From Bacteroidaceae bacterium (lineage in GTDB: Bacteria > Bacteroidota > Bacteroidia > Bacteroidales > Bacteroidaceae), in assembly GCA_017442855.1 (NCBI GenBank), contig JAFSPM010000048.1:17096-81095 (forward strand): 64,000 nucleotides of DNA. The letters are read 5' to 3'. This document shows positions 8,277 through 17,663 of this stretch, in pieces. Both the position numbers and the translations under genes were made by a program. How positions within the stretch are numbered: position 1 is the first letter of the stretch; each line of letters starts with the position of its first letter. The notes under the pieces are model-generated. The model was not told the DNA's origin and did no database searches. It worked only from the letters and a program-made list of their open reading frames with translations.

Positions 8277-8666
8277 CTACTGCTCCTCCTCTTTAAATTT
8301 CTTACCTTTGCTGCTCTTACGATGAGCCACAATATATTCACGATGCTTGTCGGCCCAGGCAGTAAGCGATACGATGAAAGGCACAAGTTCCTTGCCTAAT
8401 TCCGTGAGCTGATATTCTACATGCAAAGGAACCTCGGGGAAAACTTCACGTTGGATAAGAGCATCGTCTTCCAATGCCCGTAGCGTATTTGACAACACTT
8501 TCGTTGACACATCAGGAATAGCACGGCTCAACTCTCCAAAACGGATAGAACCTTTCTCACTAACTACCAATATTACCAAGAACGCCCATTTATTGCCAAA
8601 ACGGGCTACTACGTTACGAACGGGACATACCTCAAAGATGCTGTTTTTCTCTTCTTTCTTAAGCAT
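8277..8666 (-). CDS. HxlR-family winged-helix transcriptional regulator
   Basis: DNA-binding protein of 129 residues. It has the family's conserved Cys in CPVRN (C14), the KWAFLVILVV helix, and the recognition region FGELSRAIPDVSTKVLSNTLRALE followed by the wing VEYQLTELGKEL. HxlR/YodB-type proteins often sense electrophiles or redox stress through that Cys. It is divergent from the ABM-domain lipoprotein at 8897, with consensus promoters facing both ways. By position it probably regulates that gene and itself (inference). Confidence 0.9.
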   Translation of the reverse strand: MLKKEEKNSIFEVCPVRNVVARFGNKWAFLVILVVSEKGSIRFGELSRAIPDVSTKVLSNTLRALEDDALIQREVFPEVPLHVEYQLTELGKELVPFIVSLTAWADKHREYIVAHRKSSKGKKFKEEEQ

Positions 8667-8699
8667 GACAGTTGTGCGTTAAGTTCATAATTATCAGTC

Positions 8700-8731
8700 C
8701 AAAGATAAGAGAAAAAAATTACACATCCAAA
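8700..8731 (-). promoter_or_regulatory. Promoter for the HxlR regulator
   Basis: On the minus strand TTTG (8731-8728), 20 bp, TATCTTTG (8707-8700), 34 bases before the start codon. Full consensus. Confidence 0.75.
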
Positions 8732-8757
8732 TAATCTTATAATAAAAGTTAAAGTCA

Positions 8758-8854
8758 TTTTTGTAACAGGCTGATAACACCAATATAGACTTTTTTGTAA
8801 CTACCCTACCTTTTTATCACCTCTTGACAAGCATTTCCTTTTTACGTAATTTTG
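8758..8854 (+). promoter_or_regulatory. Promoter for the ABM lipoprotein with repeated upstream motif
   Basis: CTTG (8823-8826), 20 bp, TAATTTTG (8847-8854), 42 bases before the ATG at 8897. Upstream, TTTTTGTAAC occurs twice (8758-8767 and 8792-8801) in direct orientation 34 bp apart between the two divergent promoters. It is a candidate binding site for HxlR (inference). Confidence 0.65.
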
Positions 8855-8896
8855 CATCAAGAAACTAATTAAAAGTAAATATAAATAAATAAAAGT

Positions 8897-9589
8897 ATGA
8901 AAAGGATAATGTATGGTTTGGCAATGATGAGCCTTATTGGTATGGCATCATGCGCACAGAAAGCTGCACAGCAGCAGGAAGAGGCAGCTCCTGAAGCAGC
9001 TGCAAGTAACAACGAAATTCGCATCAACTGCCTGTTTAAGGTGGCTCCTGAGAATGTGGCTAACATCGTGAACCTGAGCAAGGAACTGGTGGCTGCTTCT
9101 CGCAACGATAGTGGTAACATTGACTATGACATTTATCAGAGTCAGATGGATCCTACACAACTGATGATATTTGAGACTTGGAAAGACCAAGCATCTCTTG
9201 ATGTTCACTCTAACGCAGCTCACTTTACCCGCATTGTACCTCAGTTGGCTGGTGCTGCTGTAGGCGAGATGGCTATCCAGTCTTTCACTGCTGACAGCAA
9301 GGGTGATGGCATTCGCATCAACTGCTTATTTAAGGTTGCTCCTGACAATTTGGTAAAGATTTTGGGACTTTCTAAGGAATTGGTGGAAATTTCCCGCAAG
9401 GATGCTGGTGTAATTGACTATGATATCTATCAGAGCCAGACGGACAAGACACAGCTGATGATATTCGAGACTTGGAAGGATCAGCCTTCATTGGACGTTC
9501 ACTCTAATGCAGATCATTTTACCCGCATTGTACCTCAATTGGCTGAAGCCGCAATAGGTGAGATGGCCATCCAAACATTCAAGAAGTGA
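8897..9589 (+). CDS. Lipoprotein with two tandem ABM (antibiotic biosynthesis monooxygenase-type) domains
   Basis: Lipoprotein signal with lipobox MASC (C19), a short Gln/Ala/Glu linker, then two nearly identical modules of about 92 residues, roughly 43-134 and 138-229. Each runs from IRINCLFKVAP through YDIYQSQ and MIFETWKDQ to HFTRIVPQL. The modules are ferredoxin-like ABM folds (YgiN-like: EIWKD, HSNADHF). ABM domains act as quinone or small-molecule monooxygenases or as binding modules and normally dimerise, so the fusion may be a covalent dimer. High similarity of the halves indicates recent internal duplication. Divergent HxlR control fits a detoxification role, which is inference. Confidence 0.85.
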   Translation: MKRIMYGLAMMSLIGMASCAQKAAQQQEEAAPEAAASNNEIRINCLFKVAPENVANIVNLSKELVAASRNDSGNIDYDIYQSQMDPTQLMIFETWKDQASLDVHSNAAHFTRIVPQLAGAAVGEMAIQSFTADSKGDGIRINCLFKVAPDNLVKILGLSKELVEISRKDAGVIDYDIYQSQTDKTQLMIFETWKDQPSLDVHSNADHFTRIVPQLAEAAIGEMAIQTFKK

Positions 9590-9622
9590 TTTATCATTTG
9601 CTAACAGATAGTTTTTGAGAGG

Positions 9623-9666
9623 ATGGCAGGCAGGCGTGATAAAACGCACTCGTGCCATTTTTCTTT
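9623..9666 (+). terminator. Possible weak terminator after the ABM lipoprotein
   Basis: Interrupted hairpin: ATGGCA (9623-9628) with TGCCAT (9653-9658), an inner GCGT/ACGC stem, and a T-rich run after it. Partial readthrough into the nitroreductase is possible. Confidence 0.4.
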
Positions 9667-9690
9667 TAGCTGAATTCACACTTTTATATT

Positions 9691-10560
9691 ATGAGTGCAG
9701 AATTAAAGACCCGCTTTCATGTAGATATATCTAAATGCATCGGCTGCGGACGCTGTGTAAATGTTTGTACGGGCATGGTGCTGAAAATGTCAGACGGAAT
9801 GCCTGTTATGCAGCCTTATGAGAAATTCGGATGGAGCGGATGCTGGCGATGCCAGCATTGCATAGCAGTATGCCCCGAAGGTGCCATCTCTATTTTCGGG
9901 AAGAAAACGTCCGACCTGCCTTCCAAACCAGACAATATCATAGCAGAACAGCTGGAGAGACTGGTGAGTTACAGGCGTTCATGCAGAAGATACCTGATGA
10001 AAAATGTGGCTCCGTCAATCATCGACAGAATCATGGATGCCATGCAGCAGGTTCCCACAGGAGGCAATGCCCAGCAAGTGGAATACACAGTAATTGATGA
10101 TATGAACCGCTTGGAAGAGATTTGGGATATCGCCTATGCCCGTATGGAGGAGAATGCGAAGCGAGGCTACTATAGCAGCGGTTTCTCATCACGTCTGTAC
10201 CAAACTATGAAGCGGTCGGAGAATAGTCTTCGCAAGGATGATATGTTGTTTTGCGGAGCACCTCACCTCTTTGTGGCTCATCAGAAGGCGTCGGGCAAAT
10301 GGGTCAGCGATGCCATTGCTGACTGCAACATCGCAACCGCTTATTTTGAACTGCTTTGCAATGCTCATGGGTTGGGTACCGTCATCATGAGTTATGCGGC
10401 CAGCGTATTGCAGGACGTTCCGCAAGCACGGGCTATGCTGGGCATTCCAGAAGACCACTACATGAATCTCATCGTAGGTTTCGGCTATCCTGAGATTCCT
10501 TACGCCAGAGGCGTGAAGAAAGACCGGTTCAGCAAGATTCACAGATGGAGCAAACGTTAA
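9691..10560 (+). CDS. Ferredoxin-nitroreductase fusion
   Basis: Flavin-dependent reductase of 289 residues. The N-terminal about 70 residues hold two [4Fe-4S] motifs (C16, C19, C22, C26 and C51, C54, C57, C61). The remainder is a nitroreductase-family FMN domain (SYRRSCRRY near 92, PTGGNAQ, then LFCGAPHLFVAH and AHGLGTVIM). The fused ferredoxin would supply electrons to the flavin directly. Probably cytoplasmic, since no signal is visible. It follows the ABM lipoprotein and is 11 bases from the next gene, so those two may be cotranscribed. Natural substrate unknown (quinone, nitro or enone reduction are family activities). Confidence 0.88.
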   Translation: MSAELKTRFHVDISKCIGCGRCVNVCTGMVLKMSDGMPVMQPYEKFGWSGCWRCQHCIAVCPEGAISIFGKKTSDLPSKPDNIIAEQLERLVSYRRSCRRYLMKNVAPSIIDRIMDAMQQVPTGGNAQQVEYTVIDDMNRLEEIWDIAYARMEENAKRGYYSSGFSSRLYQTMKRSENSLRKDDMLFCGAPHLFVAHQKASGKWVSDAIADCNIATAYFELLCNAHGLGTVIMSYAASVLQDVPQARAMLGIPEDHYMNLIVGFGYPEIPYARGVKKDRFSKIHRWSKR

Positions 10561-10571
10561 TGTAATTTTAT

Positions 10572-11333
10572 ATGATCAAAAGAACTATACTGTTATTATT
10601 TGTGTCAATGGCGATGAATGCCTTTGCACAGGTTACGAGAGAGATCCCGATGGACGCATCCCATCTGGAAGGAGTGAACGGTATGCCAATGTCGTTTGAG
10701 ATGTTCGACGGCTATCAGGTACTGCATGTAGTTCCTGAAGAGAATGCTCCTATGGCTATGACGTTAGCTGACTTAGGACTGGATGCCAATCAAACAGATA
10801 ATGGTCCTGTCAAGGCGATGTCATCCAATAAGCCACCTCAGTTTGTTAAGGTGAAGGATGTGGATTTCCACAATGGTACCATCGAACTGAAGGTATGGAG
10901 TCACATTGTTGACGGAGCTCCTGAGCTGGCGCGTGGCTTCATGGGAGTGATGTTCCGTATCAATGCTGACTATTCAAGAAATGAATATATGTATATTCGT
11001 CCTCTTAATGCGATGGTTGATGACCAAGTGAGGCGTAACCATACGTTACAATATGCTTCAAACCCAGGCTTGAACTTCGTGCTGTCACGACAGAAATTTC
11101 CAGAGAAATATGAGTCGTATGCAGAGATGGCACTCGACTGTTGGATTCTGTTGCGTATTGTGGTGAAAGACTCAATAGCTAAATTGTATATCAATAACCA
11201 CGAACAACCTTCTCTGGTGGTAACAGACCTGTGGCAAGGTCCCGATTTGCGTGGTTCTGTAGGCATCAGTGTAGGCACGGAACTGGGTACTGAAGGCTAT
11301 TTCCGTGACTTGAAGATTACGACCGAAGATTGA
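10572..11333 (+). CDS. Secreted protein with concanavalin A-like (DUF1080-type) fold, function unknown
   Basis: Signal peptide ending AFAQ, then about 235 residues that look like a single beta-sandwich: DFHNGTIELKVWS, FMGVMFRIN, YMYIRPLN, WILLRIVVKDSIAKLYIN, and a terminal LRGSVGISVGTELGTEGYFRDLKI. This strand order resembles DUF1080/LamG-like folds used for carbohydrate binding or hydrolysis. No catalytic residues can be assigned. It follows the nitroreductase by 11 bases. Another DUF1080-like protein is encoded at 45378. Confidence 0.65.
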   Translation: MIKRTILLLFVSMAMNAFAQVTREIPMDASHLEGVNGMPMSFEMFDGYQVLHVVPEENAPMAMTLADLGLDANQTDNGPVKAMSSNKPPQFVKVKDVDFHNGTIELKVWSHIVDGAPELARGFMGVMFRINADYSRNEYMYIRPLNAMVDDQVRRNHTLQYASNPGLNFVLSRQKFPEKYESYAEMALDCWILLRIVVKDSIAKLYINNHEQPSLVVTDLWQGPDLRGSVGISVGTELGTEGYFRDLKITTED

Positions 11334-11600
11334 ATTTTGCAAATAGTCTTTTTATATACATTCAATGAGCAAGAATCTATATTGTCGCTCAGCCAGTGAA
11401 GTCAGTCACCGTGGTGACTGTGTTTACTCATCGTTGTGATTTTGTTAAGTCATCGCCTTGATTAAAAATCTTCATCGGTGTGACTAAATTTCTATGGCTG
11501 TTGTAACATTGTATAGTTAATCATTGTTAATGTAAAAATGGCAAGCGCTTCAAATCGTCAATCTTGCACTATTTGTAACCATGAAACAAAAAAGTAACCT
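11334..11600. other. Intergenic region with short repeats, upstream of the peptide operon
   Basis: No gene is seen. The region contains a four-unit 22-bp direct repeat (11406-11493, listed separately), an 8-bp inverted repeat with 2-bp spacer inside the first unit (CAGTCACC at 11403, GGTGACTG at 11413), and the promoter for the downstream operon at its right end. Confidence 0.7.
11406..11493 (+). repeat. Four 22-bp direct repeats (operator-like array)
   Basis: Units begin at 11406, 11428, 11450 and 11472, exactly 22 bp apart. The first 14 bases fit TCAYCGnnKTGAYT and the remaining 8 are A/T-rich and variable. Each unit has a TCA...TGA dyad. Two helical turns between units would place bound proteins on one DNA face. 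The array ends about 107 bases before the -33 box of the peptide operon, which suits an activator or cooperative regulator. It is not CRISPR, since units abut without spacers. Confidence 0.65.
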
Positions 11601-11632
11601 CTTGTGCATTATAATTCAACATCTTATCTTTG
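11601..11632 (+). promoter_or_regulatory. Promoter of the Cys-peptide / radical SAM / SirTM operon
   Basis: CTTG (11601-11604), 20 bp, TATCTTTG (11625-11632). It lies 40 bases before the ATG at 11673 and excludes the upstream in-frame ATG at 11604 as the start. No further promoter or terminator is obvious until after 16990. Confidence 0.75.
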
Positions 11633-11672
11633 CAATGGAAAAAACAAATGTATGAACTTAAATATTTATTTT

Positions 11673-12425
11673 ATGAAAAGATTTGTATCATTCTTGATGA
11701 TGGCATCTTTACTGATAATAGGTGCCAATGCACAGAAGAAAATCATGTTTGACCTCTCACACAGTCAATGCACTGACGTATATGAAGGTCATGAAACCTA
11801 TCCTTTAGTGGTACCTGCTTATACAGAGATGGCACAGCAGTTGGGTGCCGAATTAGTGGTAAATGAAGAGGCAGAGATTACTCCTCAACTACTGAAAGGC
11901 ATTGATGTATTGGTAATGTTATCACCCTTGAGCAACAAATTGCAGAAAGACTTGACGGAGGTAGAGAAGAAAACTTTGGTTGACTTTGTAAAGAAAGGTG
12001 GCTCACTCATATTCTTCGTTGATGACAACCATCGTGTTGATTTAAGCCGTTATGGGGCCAACGATGTTACGAGAGCGTTTGGCATTGAGTTCGGCGAGGA
12101 TGTAGCCCTACCAGGTAATGTGGGAGCCGTTTCTTTCAAGAATGAAATTTTCAAGGATCGTTACGAGATTCCATACAGCGGTGCTTGCGTAATGACAGGC
12201 GGAATACCTGCCAGTGTCTGCATGGAAGATGGCTGGCTGCACAGTAGCTATGTAAAGCTCGACAATGGAGGCAAGTTCTTTGCCGGTGGCGACACAATGG
12301 TAGGCCTGCTCTTAGGTTATGATGATGGTGTTCGCAAAGTAAGGAACGGTATGGAAACCCGCTGGTGGGGCAAAGATAGTCGTGCTTTTATGACCGATTT
12401 GTTGGAATGGGCTTTGGAAAAATAA
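11673..12425 (+). CDS. Secreted protein with class I glutamine amidotransferase-like fold (DUF4350-like)
   Basis: First gene of the operon; 250 residues with a signal peptide ending GANAQ. The mature protein begins KKIMFDLSHSQ and has the alternating fold of GATase1-like/DUF4350 proteins: LVVPAYTEMAQQLGAEL, LLKGIDVLVMLSPL, LVDFVKKGGSLIFFVDD, then a C-terminal MTDLLEWALE helix. The catalytic Cys-His-Glu triad of true amidotransferases is not evident, so a binding role is more likely. The open frame continues upstream to an ATG at 11604, but that lies within the promoter, so MKRFVSF at 11673 is taken as the start. The gap to the Cys-rich peptide gene is 35 bases. Role in the operon unknown. Confidence 0.7.
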   Translation: MKRFVSFLMMASLLIIGANAQKKIMFDLSHSQCTDVYEGHETYPLVVPAYTEMAQQLGAELVVNEEAEITPQLLKGIDVLVMLSPLSNKLQKDLTEVEKKTLVDFVKKGGSLIFFVDDNHRVDLSRYGANDVTRAFGIEFGEDVALPGNVGAVSFKNEIFKDRYEIPYSGACVMTGGIPASVCMEDGWLHSSYVKLDNGGKFFAGGDTMVGLLLGYDDGVRKVRNGMETRWWGKDSRAFMTDLLEWALEK

Positions 12426-12460
12426 CAACCCTATTTATTAACTTTCAAATAAAAGAAATT

Positions 12461-12673
12461 ATGAAGAGAATTGATTTCAATTTCGCTCATAGCGCCCAGG
12501 GCGTTATGCTGAACGAAGAGAAGCCAGCTGCATGTGGTGCAGCTTGTGGTGCAGGTGACAAACCAGCTGAAGAGAAGCCAGCTGCTTGCGGTAGCGCTTG
12601 TGGCGCAGGCGACAAACCAGCTGAAGAGAAACCCGCAGCTTGCGGTAGCGCATGCGGTGCAGGTGAGAAGTAA
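12461..12673 (+). CDS. ACGX-type Cys-rich repeat peptide, predicted RiPP precursor
   Basis: Seventy-residue peptide. Residues 1-18 (MKRIDFNFAHSAQGVMLN) are leader-like. The rest is three tandem 18-residue repeats (19-36, 37-54, 55-70), each EEKPAACG[A/S]ACGAG plus DKPA, with Cys pairs at 25/29, 43/47 and 61/65. At DNA level these are 54-bp repeats from 12515. The gene sits 9 bases before a radical SAM/SPASM gene, the layout of radical-SAM-modified peptides (thioether crosslinks from Cys in sactipeptides and ranthipeptides). HMM collections name an ACGX repeat peptide and matching maturase, as far as I recall; the product is, to my knowledge, uncharacterised. ATG 12461 is preferred over an in-frame ATG at 12407 that lies inside the previous gene. 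No signal peptide or protease/exporter gene is adjacent. Confidence 0.88.
   Translation: MKRIDFNFAHSAQGVMLNEEKPAACGAACGAGDKPAEEKPAACGSACGAGDKPAEEKPAACGSACGAGEK
12515..12670 (+). repeat. Three 54-bp tandem repeats in the peptide gene
   Basis: In-frame units 12515-12568, 12569-12622 and 12623-12670 (last truncated). They encode the Cys-pair repeats and differ mostly at synonymous positions, so the amino-acid pattern appears selected. Confidence 0.85.
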
Positions 12674-12682
12674 TCAGTCATT

Positions 12683-13720
12683 ATGGAGTATTTTGCTTTC
12701 CAATGGCATATTACGGATGAGTGCGACCAACGTTGCAAGCATTGTTACATCTTTTCCGAAGGGCATCCCAAACTGATTGAGATGCCTTGGGAAAGGTTGG
12801 TTTCGGTGCTTGCCAACGTGGAGCGCATGTGTCGGAAGATGAGCCGCCTACCATATTTATATATTACAGGTGGCGACCCTATTTTGCATAGTCGCTTTTG
12901 GGATTTTCTGGAGTTAGTGCATAGCCGCAACATTCCTTTCACCATTATGGGCAATCCGTTCCACCTGACGGATGAGGTATGCCAACGCCTCAAGAGCTTA
13001 GGATGCCGCAAGTACCAGCTAAGCATTGACGGACTGCGCGAGACACATGACTATTTCCGTAAACCCGGCTCGTTTGACAGGACTCTGGAAGCCATTGCCA
13101 CCATCCGCAAAGCGGGAATGCATTGTGCCATCATGACTACGGTATCGGGTACGAACATTAACGAGATACCTGATATTATTGATTTGGTAGTGGAACATCA
13201 TGCAGACATCTTCGCGTTTGGCAGGTACTGCCCCACCAGTGAGGACAAGGCTACACCTGATAAAGGCTGGCATATCGAGCCACTGAAATATCGAGACTTA
13301 TTAGAGAAATGCTGGGCGAAGTACGAACAATACAAGAACTCAGATACGACTTTTAACCTGAAGGATCATCTGTGGACGCTCTTCCTCTACGAGAAAGGAT
13401 TGTTTAAGATTCCTGAGGGGCTTAATGATGATATCATTTATGATGGTTGCAATTGTGGTAACTGCCACTTCACTATTTCTGCAGAGGGAAGACTGATGGC
13501 TTGCCGACGTTTCGAAAGTTATGTGGGAACAGTGGAAGAAGAGTTGTGCGATGTGTTTAATGGTGAGAAAATGGAGCAATATCGACTGCATGAAAAGTTT
13601 GAGAAATGTCGCAAATGCGAGCTGTTACGTTTTTGTAGAGGTTGTCCGGCAGTAGCTTTTGGATATACACATAATTTCTATGCATCTGATCCTCAATGCT
13701 GGAAGGAGATTGACAGTTAA
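12683..13720 (+). CDS. Radical SAM/SPASM peptide maturase (ACGX system)
   Basis: Predicted maturase of the preceding Cys-rich peptide; 345 residues. The radical SAM cluster motif CX3CX2C is C14, C18, C21 in TDECDQRCKHCYIF, followed by the TGGDP SAM-binding motif. The C-terminal third is a SPASM-type domain with many Cys: CNCGNC near 255-260, then ACRRFES, then KCRKCELLRFCRGCP near 305-320 and a last Cys near 340, enough for two auxiliary [4Fe-4S] clusters. Such enzymes form thioether or other Cys crosslinks on ribosomal peptides. Direct adjacency (9 bases) and the Cys pairs make the peptide its likely substrate; reaction type is inference. Confidence 0.9.
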   Translation: MEYFAFQWHITDECDQRCKHCYIFSEGHPKLIEMPWERLVSVLANVERMCRKMSRLPYLYITGGDPILHSRFWDFLELVHSRNIPFTIMGNPFHLTDEVCQRLKSLGCRKYQLSIDGLRETHDYFRKPGSFDRTLEAIATIRKAGMHCAIMTTVSGTNINEIPDIIDLVVEHHADIFAFGRYCPTSEDKATPDKGWHIEPLKYRDLLEKCWAKYEQYKNSDTTFNLKDHLWTLFLYEKGLFKIPEGLNDDIIYDGCNCGNCHFTISAEGRLMACRRFESYVGTVEEELCDVFNGEKMEQYRLHEKFEKCRKCELLRFCRGCPAVAFGYTHNFYASDPQCWKEIDS

Positions 13721-13737
13721 TCATTATTCAATAAAAA

Positions 13738-14352
13738 GTGGACGCAATAACTTGTATTAAAAAGCTTGGGTATGTTGGAACCCTTACCTTTGCAACGGTA
13801 GATAAAAACGGACATCCTCAAGTTCGCAGTATCAGTGCCATTCATTATGAGTCAGACGCAATCTATTTCTATACTGCGCGAGGAAAGAATTTCTGCCAGC
13901 AGTTGATGGCAGACGGCCACGTGCAGATTCTAGCGCTTACCAAATATAAGGAGATGATACGTCTCTCTGCCGTTGCCAAACCTGTACCTGACGACGAACA
14001 GGAATATTGGAAGGATGTGATATTCAAGGAGCAGCCCTATTTGGCTAATGTCTATCCAGGCGATACCAGAAGCATAGGTATTATTTTCTATATCCGTGAT
14101 GCTCAAATAGAATATTTCTTCTTAGGTTGTCATCCTATAGATAGAGAATACTTAACGATGGGAAATGCTGTGCCAGAACATAAAGGTTTTGTAATTACAG
14201 ATAGTTGCATTGCTTGTGGCACATGTCAGACAGTATGTCCACAGGGTTGTATTGAAGAGGGAGAGACATACCACATACAACCTAATCATTGTCTGCATTG
14301 CGGCAATTGTTTTGAAAACTGCCCTGTTGAAGCTATTGTTAGATTGGACTAG
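13738..14352 (+). CDS. PNPOx-fold flavoprotein fused to 2x[4Fe-4S] ferredoxin
   Basis: Redox protein of 204 residues. Residues 1-140 resemble the pyridoxamine-phosphate-oxidase/flavin reductase fold (GTLTFATVDKNGHPQVR, YFYTARGKNFCQQL). The C-terminus carries two [4Fe-4S] motifs (C157, C160, C163, C167; C185, C188, C191, C195). The start is GTG at 13738; a stop codon lies in frame immediately upstream and no ATG is near. It is 17 bases after the radical SAM gene and 2 bases before the MDR gene, so it belongs to the operon. A plausible job is to supply low-potential electrons to the radical SAM enzyme or to reduce a flavin substrate; this is inference. Confidence 0.85.
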   Translation: MDAITCIKKLGYVGTLTFATVDKNGHPQVRSISAIHYESDAIYFYTARGKNFCQQLMADGHVQILALTKYKEMIRLSAVAKPVPDDEQEYWKDVIFKEQPYLANVYPGDTRSIGIIFYIRDAQIEYFFLGCHPIDREYLTMGNAVPEHKGFVITDSCIACGTCQTVCPQGCIEEGETYHIQPNHCLHCGNCFENCPVEAIVRLD

Positions 14353-14354
14353 TT

Positions 14355-15320
14355 ATGAAAGCTATTATAATAGAGAAATGTTGCGAGGCAGAAGACTTGC
14401 ATGTAAGTGAATTACCTAAACCAACTGCCAAACCTGGTTGGGTATTAGTGAAGGTGCATGCAGCTGGCTTAAACCATTCAGAAGCACTGCTGAGAATGTT
14501 TGAGGCCGACAATGATTATATCAATACGCCCATAGTACCAGGCATAGAGTGTGTGGGTGAGATAGCCGATGCTTCTGATTCTCAATTCCAAAAAGGCGAT
14601 AAGGTGATTGCCTTAATGGGAGGTATGGGGCGCAGCTTTAATGGTAGCTATGCTGAATATGCTTTGCTACCCGAAAGTCATGTATTCAAAGTTGATACAA
14701 ACCTCGACTGGATTTCATTGGCAGCTGTCCCTGAAACTTATTTTACAGCCTACGGTTCTTTGTTTGAATGCCTATACCTTACTGCTGAAGACACACTGTT
14801 AGTACGTGGAGCAACCAGTACTGTAGGACAAGCTGCTATCCAGTTGGCAAAAGCAGTTGGTGCAAAGGTGATTGCAGCTTGCCGTAAGGAAGAATCTTTC
14901 GAAAAGTTGAAAGGCATCGGAGCTGACTATTGTATCATCGACGAAGGACAACTCAGCCAACAGTCATTACCCTATAAACCAAACAAGATTTTAGAGTTAA
15001 TAGGTCCAAAGACATTACGTGACTCGTTGCTTACCGTCACACACCCTGGTTATGTATGCAGCACTGGTGTTTTGGGCAATGTGTACTCCATTACTCAGTT
15101 CGACCCAATCAAATATATACCAAACGGAGTATTCCTCACAGGGTTCTATTCCAATTTCCCAACTTATCAATCTATAAACAACCTATTTGACTTGATTAAC
15201 AAGGCACAGCTAAAACCGCTCTATGCCAAGGTGTTCACTTTAGATCAAATTGTAGAGGCACATACCTTGTTAGAGAAAGGTGGTGCCGGAGGTAAAATCA
15301 TATTGAAAATTGATTATTAG
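14355..15320 (+). CDS. MDR-family NADPH:quinone oxidoreductase / zinc-type dehydrogenase homologue
   Basis: Medium-chain dehydrogenase/reductase of 321 residues. It has a GroES-like N-terminus (VKVHAAGLNHSEALLR, PIVPGIECVGEI), the nucleotide-binding motif RGATSTVGQAAIQLAKAVGAKVIA near 150-175, and a C-terminal ending GGAGGKIILKI. The structural and catalytic zinc Cys/His clusters of classical ADHs are absent, placing it with quinone oxidoreductase or enoyl-reductase members that need no zinc. Cytoplasmic. Oxidoreductases accompany SirTM-macrodomain genes in other bacteria, as far as I recall, so its presence here fits. Substrate unknown. Confidence 0.85.
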   Translation: MKAIIIEKCCEAEDLHVSELPKPTAKPGWVLVKVHAAGLNHSEALLRMFEADNDYINTPIVPGIECVGEIADASDSQFQKGDKVIALMGGMGRSFNGSYAEYALLPESHVFKVDTNLDWISLAAVPETYFTAYGSLFECLYLTAEDTLLVRGATSTVGQAAIQLAKAVGAKVIAACRKEESFEKLKGIGADYCIIDEGQLSQQSLPYKPNKILELIGPKTLRDSLLTVTHPGYVCSTGVLGNVYSITQFDPIKYIPNGVFLTGFYSNFPTYQSINNLFDLINKAQLKPLYAKVFTLDQIVEAHTLLEKGGAGGKIILKIDY

Positions 15321-15354
15321 ATAAATCGTTTTTGAGTCTTGAACATTATACTAT

Positions 15355-16107
15355 ATGTGGGATAGGATTGAAAATATTGATTTTGTATTGAAATACTTGT
15401 TGGTGGAACAAGGAGCCCCCCCCAAGTTGCCAGATAATCTAGAAACAAAACAAAGATTAATGCGGGCATTGATGAACGTGCGCCAACCTGTGCCCGCATC
15501 AGATGAGTTCATAGCAGCACAAGATGCCGAACTGAAGCTACAGGCTAAGGATAAGGGTATTGTTAAGATTGACCAGCCTGGTATTTCCATATGGCAAGGT
15601 GACATCACCCGTTTGCAAGTGGATGCCATTGTGAATGCGGCCAACTCAAAATTGCTGGGGTGCTGGCAGCCCCTGCATGCTTGTATTGACAACTGCATCC
15701 ATTCCGCTGCCGGTATTCAGCTAAGACAGGAATGCCATGAGCTGATGCAAGCTCAGGGACATGAAGAGCCTACAGGGTGGGCAAAGATGACCAAGGGTTA
15801 TAACCTACCAGCGAAATATGTGATTCATACTGTAGGGCCAATCATCCCTGACGGACACCCTACCCCATTACAAGAGGAGCTGTTGGCTTCTTGCTACCGT
15901 TCATGTCTGGAAGTGGCTGAGCTACATAAGCTACAAAGCATCGCTTTTTGCTGTATTTCTACTGGTGTGTTTCATTTTCCTAACCAAAGAGCTGCTGAGA
16001 TAGCTGTGGAAACTGTGAAAAAATATCCCTTGACGTCACTCAAAACTATCGTTTTCAATGTATTTATAGACAAAGACTATGACATCTATCATCGACTTAT
16101 TCAGTAA
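15355..16107 (+). CDS. Zinc-containing macrodomain ADP-ribosyl hydrolase (SirTM-linked type)
   Basis: Predicted hydrolase removing ADP-ribose from proteins; 250 residues. An N-terminal helical extension (1-70) precedes the macrodomain, which begins near ISIWQGDITRLQVDAIVNAANS (78-98). The zinc-macrodomain signature C103-x4-H108-x-C110 follows, then IDNCIHSAAGIQLRQEC. YVIHTVGP and the phosphate-binding loop SIAFCCISTGVFHFP come later. This Cys-His-Cys type is the one found beside SirTM sirtuins, whose modification it reverses. It lies 34 bases after the MDR gene and 7 bases before the SirTM start, forming a transferase/hydrolase pair. Family is firm; the cellular target is unknown. Confidence 0.9.
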   Translation: MWDRIENIDFVLKYLLVEQGAPPKLPDNLETKQRLMRALMNVRQPVPASDEFIAAQDAELKLQAKDKGIVKIDQPGISIWQGDITRLQVDAIVNAANSKLLGCWQPLHACIDNCIHSAAGIQLRQECHELMQAQGHEEPTGWAKMTKGYNLPAKYVIHTVGPIIPDGHPTPLQEELLASCYRSCLEVAELHKLQSIAFCCISTGVFHFPNQRAAEIAVETVKKYPLTSLKTIVFNVFIDKDYDIYHRLIQ

Positions 16108-16114
16108 AAAGACA

Positions 16115-16990
16115 ATGTCACAACCAACGTTTAAGCATCGTATTGAACAAGTGAGGAAACTTTTGTACGAAGCTGACCATGTATTGATTGGTGCAGGCTC
16201 GGGGCTTTCAGCAGCAGCTGGCTTGGACTATGGGGGCGCGGAGTTCAAGCAGGAGTTTCATGAGTGGATAGAGCGTTATGGATTTGAAGACCTTTATTCT
16301 TCTTCATTCTATCCATTCCCAACAGAAGAGGAAAGATGGGCATATTGGGCGAGGCATATCTGGTTTACTCGCTATCGCGTCAAAGGTATGGAGCTTTATC
16401 ACCAGCTTTTTGATTTGGTTAAAGACAAGAATTATTTTGTCATCACTACCAATGTGGATGCACAGTTTGAGAAATCGGGCTTCTCGAAAGATAGAATTTT
16501 TGCCACACAAGGCGACTATGCCTATTTTCAAGCTAAGGGTGGAGAAAACAAAAAGTTGATTTATAATGAGGAATGGGTGAAGCAAGCGATGGATGCAACC
16601 ATTAATTGCAAGGTACCCACATCATTGATACCCCATCATCCAGATACTGGTGAGGCACTGAGTCCTAATTTACGTTGTGACAGTTTTTTTGTAGAGGATG
16701 AACATTGGCACCAACAAGCTGATAAATATCAAGATTTCGTACTGACAGGCAGTAAGAAGAACATGCTGTTATTAGAGTTTGGTGTGGGCTTCAACACGCC
16801 AATTATCATCCGTTTCCCCTTCGAGCAAATGGCTGGAAACTTTGAAGGAACAACCCTTGTACGCTTCAATCGCGACTACCCACAACTTACAACACCATAT
16901 GTGACAAGATACATTGCCTTTCAAGAGAAACTAAACCAGTCTTTGTTGCAGGCCATTGCCTCAATGGCAACTATGTCAGCTTCTGCTTAG
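16115..16990 (+). CDS. SirTM-type sirtuin (protein ADP-ribosyltransferase)
   Basis: Sir2-fold NAD-dependent enzyme of 291 residues. Visible are GAGSGLSAAAGLDYGG (27-41), TTNVDAQFEKSGF (111-123) and ATQGDYAYFQ (130-139), where canonical sirtuins have a catalytic His. Class M sirtuins lack that His and transfer ADP-ribose, in Gram-positives to a lipoylated GcvH-L. The usual zinc-binding CxxC pairs look eroded: IPHHPDTGEALSPNLRCD keeps only isolated Cys. The last 11 residues (from 16955) and the stop codon lie inside a degenerate copy of the glycosidase 3' end, in another frame, so the C-terminus is chimeric. ATG 16115 is preferred over 16079, which overlaps the macrodomain gene. No GcvH-L or lipoate ligase gene is nearby. 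Confidence 0.85.
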   Translation: MSQPTFKHRIEQVRKLLYEADHVLIGAGSGLSAAAGLDYGGAEFKQEFHEWIERYGFEDLYSSSFYPFPTEEERWAYWARHIWFTRYRVKGMELYHQLFDLVKDKNYFVITTNVDAQFEKSGFSKDRIFATQGDYAYFQAKGGENKKLIYNEEWVKQAMDATINCKVPTSLIPHHPDTGEALSPNLRCDSFFVEDEHWHQQADKYQDFVLTGSKKNMLLLEFGVGFNTPIIIRFPFEQMAGNFEGTTLVRFNRDYPQLTTPYVTRYIAFQEKLNQSLLQAIASMATMSASA

Positions 16991-17050
16991 CCTCTATCCC
17001 TGCTAGTCAGGCAGGTAAGCATTTACCGCATTAAGATGTTTGACTACTAA
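16954..17050 (+). pseudogene. Degenerate 3' remnant of a GH35/DUF5597 glycosidase gene (right copy of direct repeat)
   Basis: Aligned by hand with 8085-8177. In the glycosidase frame it reads HCLNG, then VSFCLASIPASQ, a 4-base CAGG duplication, then VSIYRIKMFDY and TAA; the intact gene has HRLNG, TSFSVATIPVGQ, VGIFRIKMFEY. The rest of the gene is absent upstream of about 16954, where the SirTM gene abuts. The SirTM stop codon (16988-16990) lies within it. Confidence 0.75.
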
Positions 17051-17124
17051 AATTCATACAACTGCCTGCCAACAATAATAGGGAAGCTTGTTATTACAAT
17101 GCCTAAAACTCGCTATTACTATTG

Positions 17125-17267
17125 GGAGAACTTGCTACCACCGACGGCAATAGTTGCCATGGGTTATCGCAATATCTCCCATAGGGGTATAGGAGATACT
17201 GCGATGAGTAATAGCAGATACTGGAACGGGTGATAGCAAATACTGCGACGACCCGTAGAAATGCTTA
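17125..17267. repeat. Intergenic hairpin repeat, copy A
   Basis: Non-coding stretch sharing words with 56907-57055, such as TAGGAGATACTGCGATGAG and GCGACGACCCGTAG. It holds an imperfect 16-bp inverted repeat (17168-17183 with 17188-17203, 14 of 16 paired) with a GGGG loop. Its right end includes the stop codon of the minus-strand PNPOx gene. Confidence 0.65.
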
Positions 17268-17663
17268 GAATGAAATTACTTTAGGAGCTTCCGTAAACGA
17301 ATAGAAAGTAGCGGTGGCATCAGTGACGTAGAGCACTGCCATATTGCCATCGTCAGCTTTGTACATTGATTTCAGTTCGGGGTTCAGTTCCAAGAACTGC
17401 TCCTTGATGGCCAACGAATCATCGTTCACCAACTTGCCACATAATCGCATCCACTCGGCACCATTGGCCTTCATGGCGCATACCTCAAATTTGGGATTGG
17501 CATCCAACTGCTTGAACACATTCTTTACTTTACCCGTCATGAAATACAGACGTCCGTCAAGTATCTCCATTGCGCCAAAGGGGCGTACACGGGGCTGATC
17601 TCCATCGCAAGTAGCCAGGAAAAAAGCACCACACTCTTTCAAATAAGCTAAAACTTCGTTCAT
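17265..17663 (-). CDS. PNPOx-family FMN-binding protein
   Basis: Small flavoprotein-type protein of 132 residues with the split-barrel fold of pyridoxamine-phosphate-oxidase-like and general-stress proteins: FFLATCDGDQPRVRPFGAM near 14-32, LYFMTGKVKNVFKQLDANP, then MRLCGKLV and a C-terminal TATFYSFTEAPKVISF. Members bind FMN or F420 and reduce small molecules or sense flavin; the true substrate is unknown. The stop codon lies in the flanking hairpin repeat. It is downstream of the SGNH hydrolase on the same strand with a 52-base gap. Confidence 0.85.
   Translation of the reverse strand: MNEVLAYLKECGAFFLATCDGDQPRVRPFGAMEILDGRLYFMTGKVKNVFKQLDANPKFEVCAMKANGAEWMRLCGKLVNDDSLAIKEQFLELNPELKSMYKADDGNMAVLYVTDATATFYSFTEAPKVISF

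Follow-up and report, generated by a model that had tools for sequence, protein, structure and literature searches.

A recurrent HxlR-linked operon joining an ACGX peptide system to a SirTM sirtuin and a zinc macrodomain

Introduction

What could a cysteine-rich peptide and its radical SAM/SPASM enzyme have to do with a pair of predicted protein ADP-ribosylation enzymes? The question is raised by a 64,000-nucleotide stretch of DNA from a Bacteroidaceae bacterium (assembly GCA_017442855.1, contig JAFSPM010000048.1, positions 17,096 to 81,095), hereafter the window, in which one seven-gene unit holds an ACGX-repeat peptide, its enzyme, a zinc macrodomain (ZnMac) and a class-M sirtuin (SirTM). 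An earlier note on this DNA held that the two modules belong together and knew of no characterised system combining them. The second point agrees with our search of the open-licence PMC literature, where no paper was found on ACGX peptides, on acgM together with acgA, on a radical SAM enzyme with both a sirtuin and a macrodomain, on HxlR regulators with a macrodomain, on SirTM with a nitroreductase or, likewise, on HxlR with radical SAM and SPASM; the combination is recurrent and, in that literature, undescribed. The first point stands in part: the modules co-occur in several Bacteroidota arrangements and their union is usual in a second class, but an HxlR regulator, which the earlier note had missed, is common to both, and the SirTM/ZnMac pair is dispensable in Bacteroidota.

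Results

Seven same-strand open reading frames (ORFs) occupy positions 11604-16990 (+) of the window, with all predicted genes present, as the earlier note had described. After two starts were corrected by reading the sequence (the GAT-like gene from 11604 to 11673, SirTM from 16079 to 16115), the gaps between them are 35, 9, 17, 2, 34 and 7 bp, which would suit one transcript. The peptide (12461-12673, +; 70 aa, 6 Cys, N-terminal HSAQG motif) scores 62 bits with TIGR04341 (cut-off 28), and the radical SAM/SPASM enzyme (acgM; 12683-13720, +), which follows it after 9 bp, scores 565 bits with TIGR04340 (cut-off 400), so both belong by NCBIfam cut-offs to the ACGX system. The enzyme matches PF04055 and PF13186 and has the residues of a peptide maturase: the cysteines of its CX3CX2C motif (14/18/21) and those of its SPASM domain (256, 258, 274, 309, 312, 318, 321 and 339) are all present in 81 of 81 aligned rows. 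It scored too low for two other classes, the thio(seleno)oxazole SbtM class (174 bits, below the cut-off of 350) and the PapB ranthipeptide class (58 bits, below 340).

At the far end of the unit lies the zinc macrodomain (15355-16107, +), of protein-ADP-ribose hydrolase type, with 335 bits in NF003163 (cut-off 272). It shows the motifs by which Zn-Macros are defined in the excerpted text of PMC11490716, namely a Zn-loop CWQPLHAC (Cx4HxC), DNCIH (Dx3H) and VNAANS (NAAN), as well as the N-terminal extension; among solved Zn-Macros it aligns from residue 6 with 8rsi (E 1e-78) and also matches 5kiv. The SirTM gene (16115-16990, +) starts just after the ZnMac stop at 16107, and this genetic linkage to a Zn-macrodomain is itself a class-M trait. 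Its product has no Pfam match and aligns with the solved SpySirTM 5a3a at E 6e-37; QG replaces the catalytic HG, and N113, Q132 and R187 align to SpySirTM N118, Q137 and R192, whose mutation strongly lowered activity in the assays described in a passage of PMC4518038. These three residues are kept in 78 of the 78 SirTM rows of our joint tree set, from which we had excluded beforehand matches below 250 bits and 12 rows that were divergent, partial or in tandem. On these features SirTM should be a protein ADP-ribosyltransferase and ZnMac the remover of ADP-ribose, and the earlier identification of both modules holds.

Three further genes complete the unit. Between the modules lie a PNPOx-fold domain fused to a 2x[4Fe-4S] ferredoxin (PNPOx-Fd; 13738-14352, +; GTG start; PF01243 and Fer4) and an MDR-family quinone-reductase-like enzyme (14355-15320, +; PF08240/PF00107), which a nitroreductase replaces in other ACGX loci. 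The first gene (11673-12425, +), present in 9 of 81 ACGX loci, encodes a GAT-like (ThuA/ABC_transp_aux-like) protein with an N-terminus that looks by eye like a signal peptide; the amidotransferase fold proposed for it earlier is tentative, its Pfam matches all being sub-threshold.

The union of the two modules is usual in a second class, that of genome G268 (321 genomes; presumably Clostridia). The ACGX enzyme was matched at E 1e-70 in 15 of these genomes and SirTM at E 1e-20 in 57, and SirTM was present in 14 of the 15 ACGX genomes against 43 of the 306 others (p about 1e-10 by Fisher's test, without correction for kinship). G1235, which is among the 15, has a 37% enzyme match and no ACGX peptide. 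We examined 17 enzyme places, 14 of which (13 genomes) have an ACGX peptide; L252, L268 and L269, which lack it, were not counted. ZnMac and SirTM lie on the same strand, with starts within 5 kb of the enzyme start, in 11 of the 14 peptide-bearing loci, the exceptions being L254 and L265, without a nearby pair, and L258, which ends 1.5 kb after the enzyme. HxlR was found in all 14, divergent upstream in 13, and PNPOx-Fd in 8 of the 11 linked loci. Three second-class enzymes and that of a Subdoligranulum plasmid score 555-600 bits with TIGR04340, and the Zn motif is present in 13/13 linked loci outside Bacteroidota.

The same gene string is also present on plasmids. Four plasmid records with an ACGX enzyme represent three distinct plasmids, and two of the three have SirTM within 3 kb: in Roseburia sp. 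831b a helix-turn-helix gene stands beside acgA, acgM, a nitroreductase, a 4Fe4S protein, a protein-ADP-ribose hydrolase and Sir2, and in Subdoligranulum HxlR stands beside ACGX, the radical SAM enzyme, a nitroreductase, PNPOx-Fd, SirTM and ZnMac. The third, from Methanosphaera, carries HxlR, PNPOx-Fd, an ACGX-like peptide, the radical SAM enzyme and MDR, with no SirTM match in its 19-kb stretch. On this plasmid (pNP174, L234:8667-10019) the archaeal ACGX-like peptide has a different repeat, and the annotation splits the radical SAM/SPASM enzyme into two genes. Phages gave no match to the radical SAM enzyme at E 1e-40, and IMG/VR gave one ACGX locus, L253, with an antibiotic-biosynthesis-monooxygenase-fold (ABM) gene, a nitroreductase and HxlR and without SirTM; this putative viral contig may be bacterial DNA. 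The two halves are thus adjacent in other genomes too, whereas adjacency in this genome alone is what the earlier note would have taken against the idea, and the view we had favoured before, that the union is an oddity of Bacteroidota, was dropped on the plasmid and second-class evidence.

Within Bacteroidota the picture is looser. A one-per-species genome scan gave, as the best 80 of 322 relatives, ACGX loci from 79 genomes, 81 loci with the window added. Six of the 81 have an intact SirTM/ZnMac pair no more than 10 kb from the ACGX enzyme: after MDR in the window, in L049 and in L097 (Marinilabiliales), between GAT and ACGX in L050, convergent in L065, and about 9 kb downstream in L103 (Prolixibacteraceae); L060 and L127 contain fragments only. 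The L050 pair, 63-73% identical to that of the window, sits at another place in the operon. SirTM was found in 14 of the 79 ACGX genomes (8/49 and 6/30), a set counted as Bacteroidota that includes G268, itself one of the 14, which is labelled Oscillospiraceae and whose ACGX contig could be mis-binned. Six of the 14 have SirTM within 10 kb of the ACGX enzyme (five intact, one decayed, L060) against 0.09 expected by random placement (kinship uncorrected), with linkage not judgeable in G226, G234 and G251, whose SirTM contigs are shorter than 5 kb. On a first SirTM tree, built without rows of 180 aa or less and with four more removed, the linked SirTMs require 3 changes, 2 of them forced by well-supported branches, and shuffled labels went as low in 5 of 500 trials; because linked SirTMs are more clustered than shuffled labels, some of the links are inherited. 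On the joint SirTM tree, a single tree made by a quick method, 12 changes are required for the ACGX-linked label. SirTM was detected in 10 of the 201 family genomes (E 1e-10), in 14 of 393 from the order and in 1 of 395 from the phylum sample (E 1e-20); the single phylum match is the genome of the window.

Which genes accompany the ACGX core across Bacteroidota? The census covered 53 of the 81 ACGX loci, those with at least 3 kb of flank on each side, many of the 81 having less than 10 kb. Profile searches found the ACGX peptide in 53/53 of these loci and HxlR within 5 kb in 51/53, the two without it being L050, whose contig begins 5 kb upstream, and L112. Every locus has at least one reductase, 35 with MDR only, 15 with a nitroreductase only and 3 with both. 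The window and L050 are two of these last, and there the nitroreductase domain belongs to a separate ferredoxin fusion. No gene cluster beyond the profiled families occurs in more than 11 of the 81 loci, and no recurring transporter or peptidase was recognised with the core among the 45 largest gene clusters, which are only partly annotated; because none recurs, we take the ACGX peptide to be intracellular.

In the window the regulator is encoded at 8277-8666 (-), with 96 bits in PF01638 and an N-terminal cysteine in the motif CPVRN. This cysteine is kept in 103 of 104 aligned rows, which together with the PF01638 match marks it as a member of HxlR and DUF24, which we take to be one family. 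In one HxlR clade of 94 rows we found 68/68 of the rows from ACGX loci, 6/6 of those from loci with both modules and 11/13 of those from SirTM loci, but also 9/17 of the other rows. According to a passage of PMC6943732, a conserved N-terminal cysteine lets the DUF24 regulators HypR, YodB and CatR detect HOCl, quinones and diamide, and their targets include the nitroreductase YodC and the azoreductase AzoR1.

We looked for the start of the transcript in the + strand of 8601-17300, using the Bacteroidetes-type pattern TTG-N17..23-TAnnTTTG. Two matches were found against about 0.75 expected by chance, and we consider them as suggestive only, candidate promoters: TTG-N20-TATCTTTG at 11602-11632 (+), ahead of the seven-gene unit and before GAT, and TTG-N20-TAATTTTG at 8824-8854 (+), before ABM and divergent from HxlR, with a like site at L049:7222. 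An E. coli-type sigma-70 scan showed no excess (16 matches against 16.7 expected from shuffled DNA). A transcription start between the modules, at 14352-15355, had been named in the earlier note as a sign that they are separate; the scan of the window showed no Bacteroidetes-type match in that interval.

Compared with L049, five of the six genes analysed (the peptide was not among them) have ratios of nonsynonymous to synonymous substitution (dN/dS) of 0.047-0.16, with SirTM at 0.16 and ZnMac at 0.11, and are thus under purifying selection. Synonymous divergence (dS) is 0.37-0.54 for the other five genes and only 0.008 for PNPOx-Fd (against L049:10056-10670); it is 0.025 between L050 and the window for hyp253, a 253-aa protein encoded at 10572-11333 (+), without family match and with an N-terminus that looks by eye like a signal peptide. 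This near identity of PNPOx-Fd in one relative and of hyp253 in another indicates that the operon has recently recombined internally.

Upstream of the unit, and beside hyp253, whose relatives lie near ZnMac/SirTM in L103, L102, L114 and L118, are the ABM protein, with two ABM repeats (8897-9589, +; PF03992), and a ferredoxin-nitroreductase fusion (9691-10560, +; PF00881 82 bits and Fer4), which has a 98% identical copy in L050 and was not found in L049 or L051. In these last two loci the genes at 9691-11333 are missing between ABM and GAT, and ABM ends 14 bp upstream of GAT. Downstream, a PNPOx-like 132-aa protein faces the operon (17265-17663, -; PF01243 39 bits), and its relatives recur next to Bacteroidota SirTM genes.

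Several further observations concern SirTM genes and their neighbours. The window's genome (G000) contains two or more additional SirTM genes that are interrupted by contig ends (L151 on contig C48, L152 on C20 and L153 on C16); since one 120-bp block is identical at the contig ends of the C20 and C16 pieces, paralogous copies probably broke the assembly, and on C48 the order is HxlR-ZnMac-SirTM on one strand. SirTM genes also lie near contig ends in the draft genomes G129, G176, G234, G226, G251 and G250, perhaps reflecting multiple similar copies. DUF5131 (PF07505) proteins occur in or right beside SirTM operons in L164:10491-11363 and L097:12672-13547, and DUF1848 (PF08902) proteins in L232:12995-13936 and L267:9607-10536. 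Tandem SirTM-like sirtuin pairs were seen in L161, L162, L192 and L194, with no ZnMac match in the stretch; those of L161 and L162 are 29-37% identical to the window SirTM. In L262:11917-13200, with like ORFs in L263 and L264, RelB-/ParE-type toxin-antitoxin and HD-domain proteins lie inside the operon, between PNPOx-Fd and ZnMac.

Discussion

How, then, might the two modules work together? We lean, by a little, towards an operon for thiol or electrophile stress that is governed by HxlR, in which SirTM ADP-ribosylates a product of the operon and ZnMac reverses this. A reactive compound would modify the N-terminal cysteine of HxlR, by analogy with HypR, YodB and CatR, and so release the cluster. 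The radical SAM/SPASM enzyme, whose family is established, would then modify a short Cys-Gly-rich peptide, with a chemistry and an intracellular location that we infer, and the modified peptide would buffer or carry. MDR or the nitroreductase would serve as NAD(P)H- or flavin-dependent reductases and PNPOx-Fd as electron carrier. SirTM would add ADP-ribose to a product of its own operon and the zinc macrodomain would strip it off, so that redox output would be switched by NAD+ supply; the likeliest targets would be the modified ACGX peptide or PNPOx-Fd. The stress signal, the peptide chemistry and the ADP-ribosylation target are thus what we infer. That the target lies within the operon is supported by the tight gene string of the second class and by its 0/11 GcvH matches (see below). 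More tentatively, the modified ACGX peptide might itself be the ADP-ribosylated, sulfur-based redox carrier, fed by nitroreductase or MDR and PNPOx-Fd, with SirTM as its switch and ZnMac restoring it, in place of lipoyl-GcvH-L with LplA2 and OYE; this analogy we regard as possible and no better than that. If it held, the peptide would for the first time take the targets of SirTM beyond the GcvH family and would be, to our knowledge, the first ADP-ribosylated RiPP-type peptide (ribosomally synthesised and post-translationally modified).

A number of our results weigh against such a coupling. No SirTM match at E 1e-10 was obtained in 65 of the 79 ACGX genomes, and 43 of the 57 second-class SirTM genomes have no ACGX enzyme match. 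Similarly, the ACGX enzyme gave no match at E 1e-60 in 18 of the 19 SirTM/ZnMac genomes taken from the family and order of the window, in a search that omitted the weak-match genomes G069, G112 and G140; all three had been included in the earlier family search, in which six genomes other than these passed the cut-off. Locus L051, syntenic with the window on both sides, keeps HxlR beside ABM, GAT, ACGX, the radical SAM enzyme and MDR and lacks both the pair and PNPOx-Fd, and its peptide is almost identical to that of the window; no additional motif was apparent by eye in the ACGX peptides that neighbour SirTM. In Bacteroidota the SirTM/ZnMac pair is therefore a labile, dispensable addition. The reverse is seen in L306:8276-9669, where HxlR, a truncated ACGX frame and a nitroreductase fragment run into PNPOx-Fd, ZnMac and SirTM with no match to the radical SAM enzyme: SirTM persists without that gene beside it, in what seems to be the remnant of an ACGX operon that kept its SirTM half after the ACGX half was lost. 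Promoter-like matches also occur between SirTM and ACGX in L050 (4787) and inside MDR in L049 (11345), and because of them the two halves may be transcribed apart in these loci. Finally, a palindrome search near 104 HxlR genes gave no operator common to both modules; the best candidate palindromes are found at no more than 10 loci, which come almost entirely from the ACGX group, and their sharing resembles kinship.

The strongest rival to direct coupling is a shared HxlR regulon, in which the modules would have no biochemical connection and SirTM would act on unrelated proteins. HxlR is the common denominator of both modules, each being accompanied by it when the other is absent. A search of 13 of the 21 SirTM-positive family and order genomes without the ACGX enzyme located an HxlR gene no further than 10 kb from SirTM in 8 of the 13 (in one of these, G654, a distant HxlR type). 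In the second class we considered 40 SirTM loci, out of 63 places, without an intact ACGX beside them (from 37 of the 43 non-ACGX genomes, plus the extra copies L337, L338 and L339 of ACGX genomes), and HxlR lies within 7 kb in 17 of them. Genomes have 0-4 HxlR matches (E 1e-10; 30 genomes), and the window's genome has three, each at most 10 kb from a SirTM ORF. Furthermore, one HxlR clade spans the ACGX rows, those with both modules and most SirTM rows, and L051 manages without the pair. Since HxlR stands beside each half alone, much of the linkage could be due to common control. However, the presence of SirTM in 14 of 15 second-class ACGX genomes, with 11 single gene strings, is tighter than a loose regulon needs, and we hold the absence of any coupling to be rather doubtful.

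The substrate might instead be PNPOx-Fd, or the nitroreductase or MDR, with the ACGX pair as a passenger, an explanation that overlaps one branch of the coupling we favour and that we consider unlikely in this separate form. PNPOx-Fd lies within 7 kb, upstream of ZnMac-SirTM, in 11 of the 40 second-class loci without intact ACGX, and it is enriched beside SirTM among Bacteroidota ACGX loci (5 of 7 SirTM-bearing against 13 of 74 others, p 0.005 in a post hoc test, with the SirTM fragment of L127 counted as without SirTM). Staphylococcal and streptococcal SirTM operons also have OYE and luciferase-like oxidoreductases, according to an excerpt of PMC4518038. On the other hand, ACGX and SirTM occur together without PNPOx-Fd in L255, L256 and L267 of the second class and in L097 and L103 of Bacteroidota, and PNPOx-Fd is found in ACGX loci without SirTM as well.

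Could SirTM simply modify canonical lipoyl-GcvH, as in staphylococci and streptococci, with its neighbours here incidental? No protein but GcvH-L is known as a target of SirTM ADP-ribosylation, the targets of other SirTM/Zn-Macro systems being unknown, as stated in a passage of PMC11490716, and a GcvH match was present in each of the six Bacteroidota genomes searched. We nevertheless judge this improbable: GcvH gave no match in any of the 11 linked second-class genomes (these are drafts, and the GcvH search did not extend to SirTM genomes lacking ACGX), and the MorMacro of a minimal operon could not demodify SpyGcvH-L in the experiments excerpted from PMC11490716. Neither GcvH-L nor LplA2 is among the window's seven genes (LplA was not searched genome-wide), which places the operon outside the extended lipoyl type. 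Least credible of all is a meaningless union in a variable hot-spot that gathers redox genes, which the mosaic locus and the differing module content of close relatives would fit, but which was already strained by the second-class sample and runs against linkage that in both samples greatly exceeds random placement (kinship uncorrected), the shared gene string of the Roseburia and Subdoligranulum plasmids and the purifying selection on the operon genes.

The operon recurs in two phyla, one of them without a GcvH match in 11 genomes, and it offers a short candidate list of SirTM targets. Moreover, its HxlR and reductase context makes a role of ACGX peptides in thiol or electrophile stress directly testable.

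Parts of the operon resemble several known systems. The window's peptide and enzyme lie above the cut-offs of the NCBIfam ACGX system (TIGR04340/TIGR04341, acgM/acgA), where the pair was already named; those models are limited to the peptide and enzyme, and it is the present census that adds the HxlR, reductase, PNPOx-Fd and SirTM/ZnMac partners. With the HypR, YodB and CatR regulons of Bacillus subtilis, as excerpted in PMC6943732, the window shares the regulator type with its N-terminal cysteine and adjoining nitroreductase- or quinone-reductase-like enzymes; unlike them, it has a RiPP-like peptide and an ADP-ribosylation pair, and thiol sensing would hold by analogy only. The minimal SirTM/Zn-Macro operon (MorMacro; a passage of PMC11490716) shares the adjacent, nearly overlapping macrodomain and sirtuin genes, whereas the window pair is embedded in an HxlR-linked redox cluster. 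There is, too, the extended SirTM operon of Lactobacillales and Staphylococcaceae (GcvH-L, LplA2, Zn-Macro, SirTM, OYE, LLM), as portrayed in parts of PMC4518038 and PMC11490716: common to both are SirTM with Zn-Macro, the catalytic residues, co-encoded oxidoreductases and a small carrier-like protein with its modifying enzyme, and the link to oxidative stress proposed there would extend to the window operon. Unlike that operon, the window has HxlR, nitroreductase or MDR and PNPOx-Fd, not OYE and LLM, and a Cys-rich ACGX peptide with its radical SAM enzyme instead of a lipoyl domain; since GcvH-L is absent and the ACGX peptide is not a lipoyl domain, the parallel is one of resemblance, not of membership.

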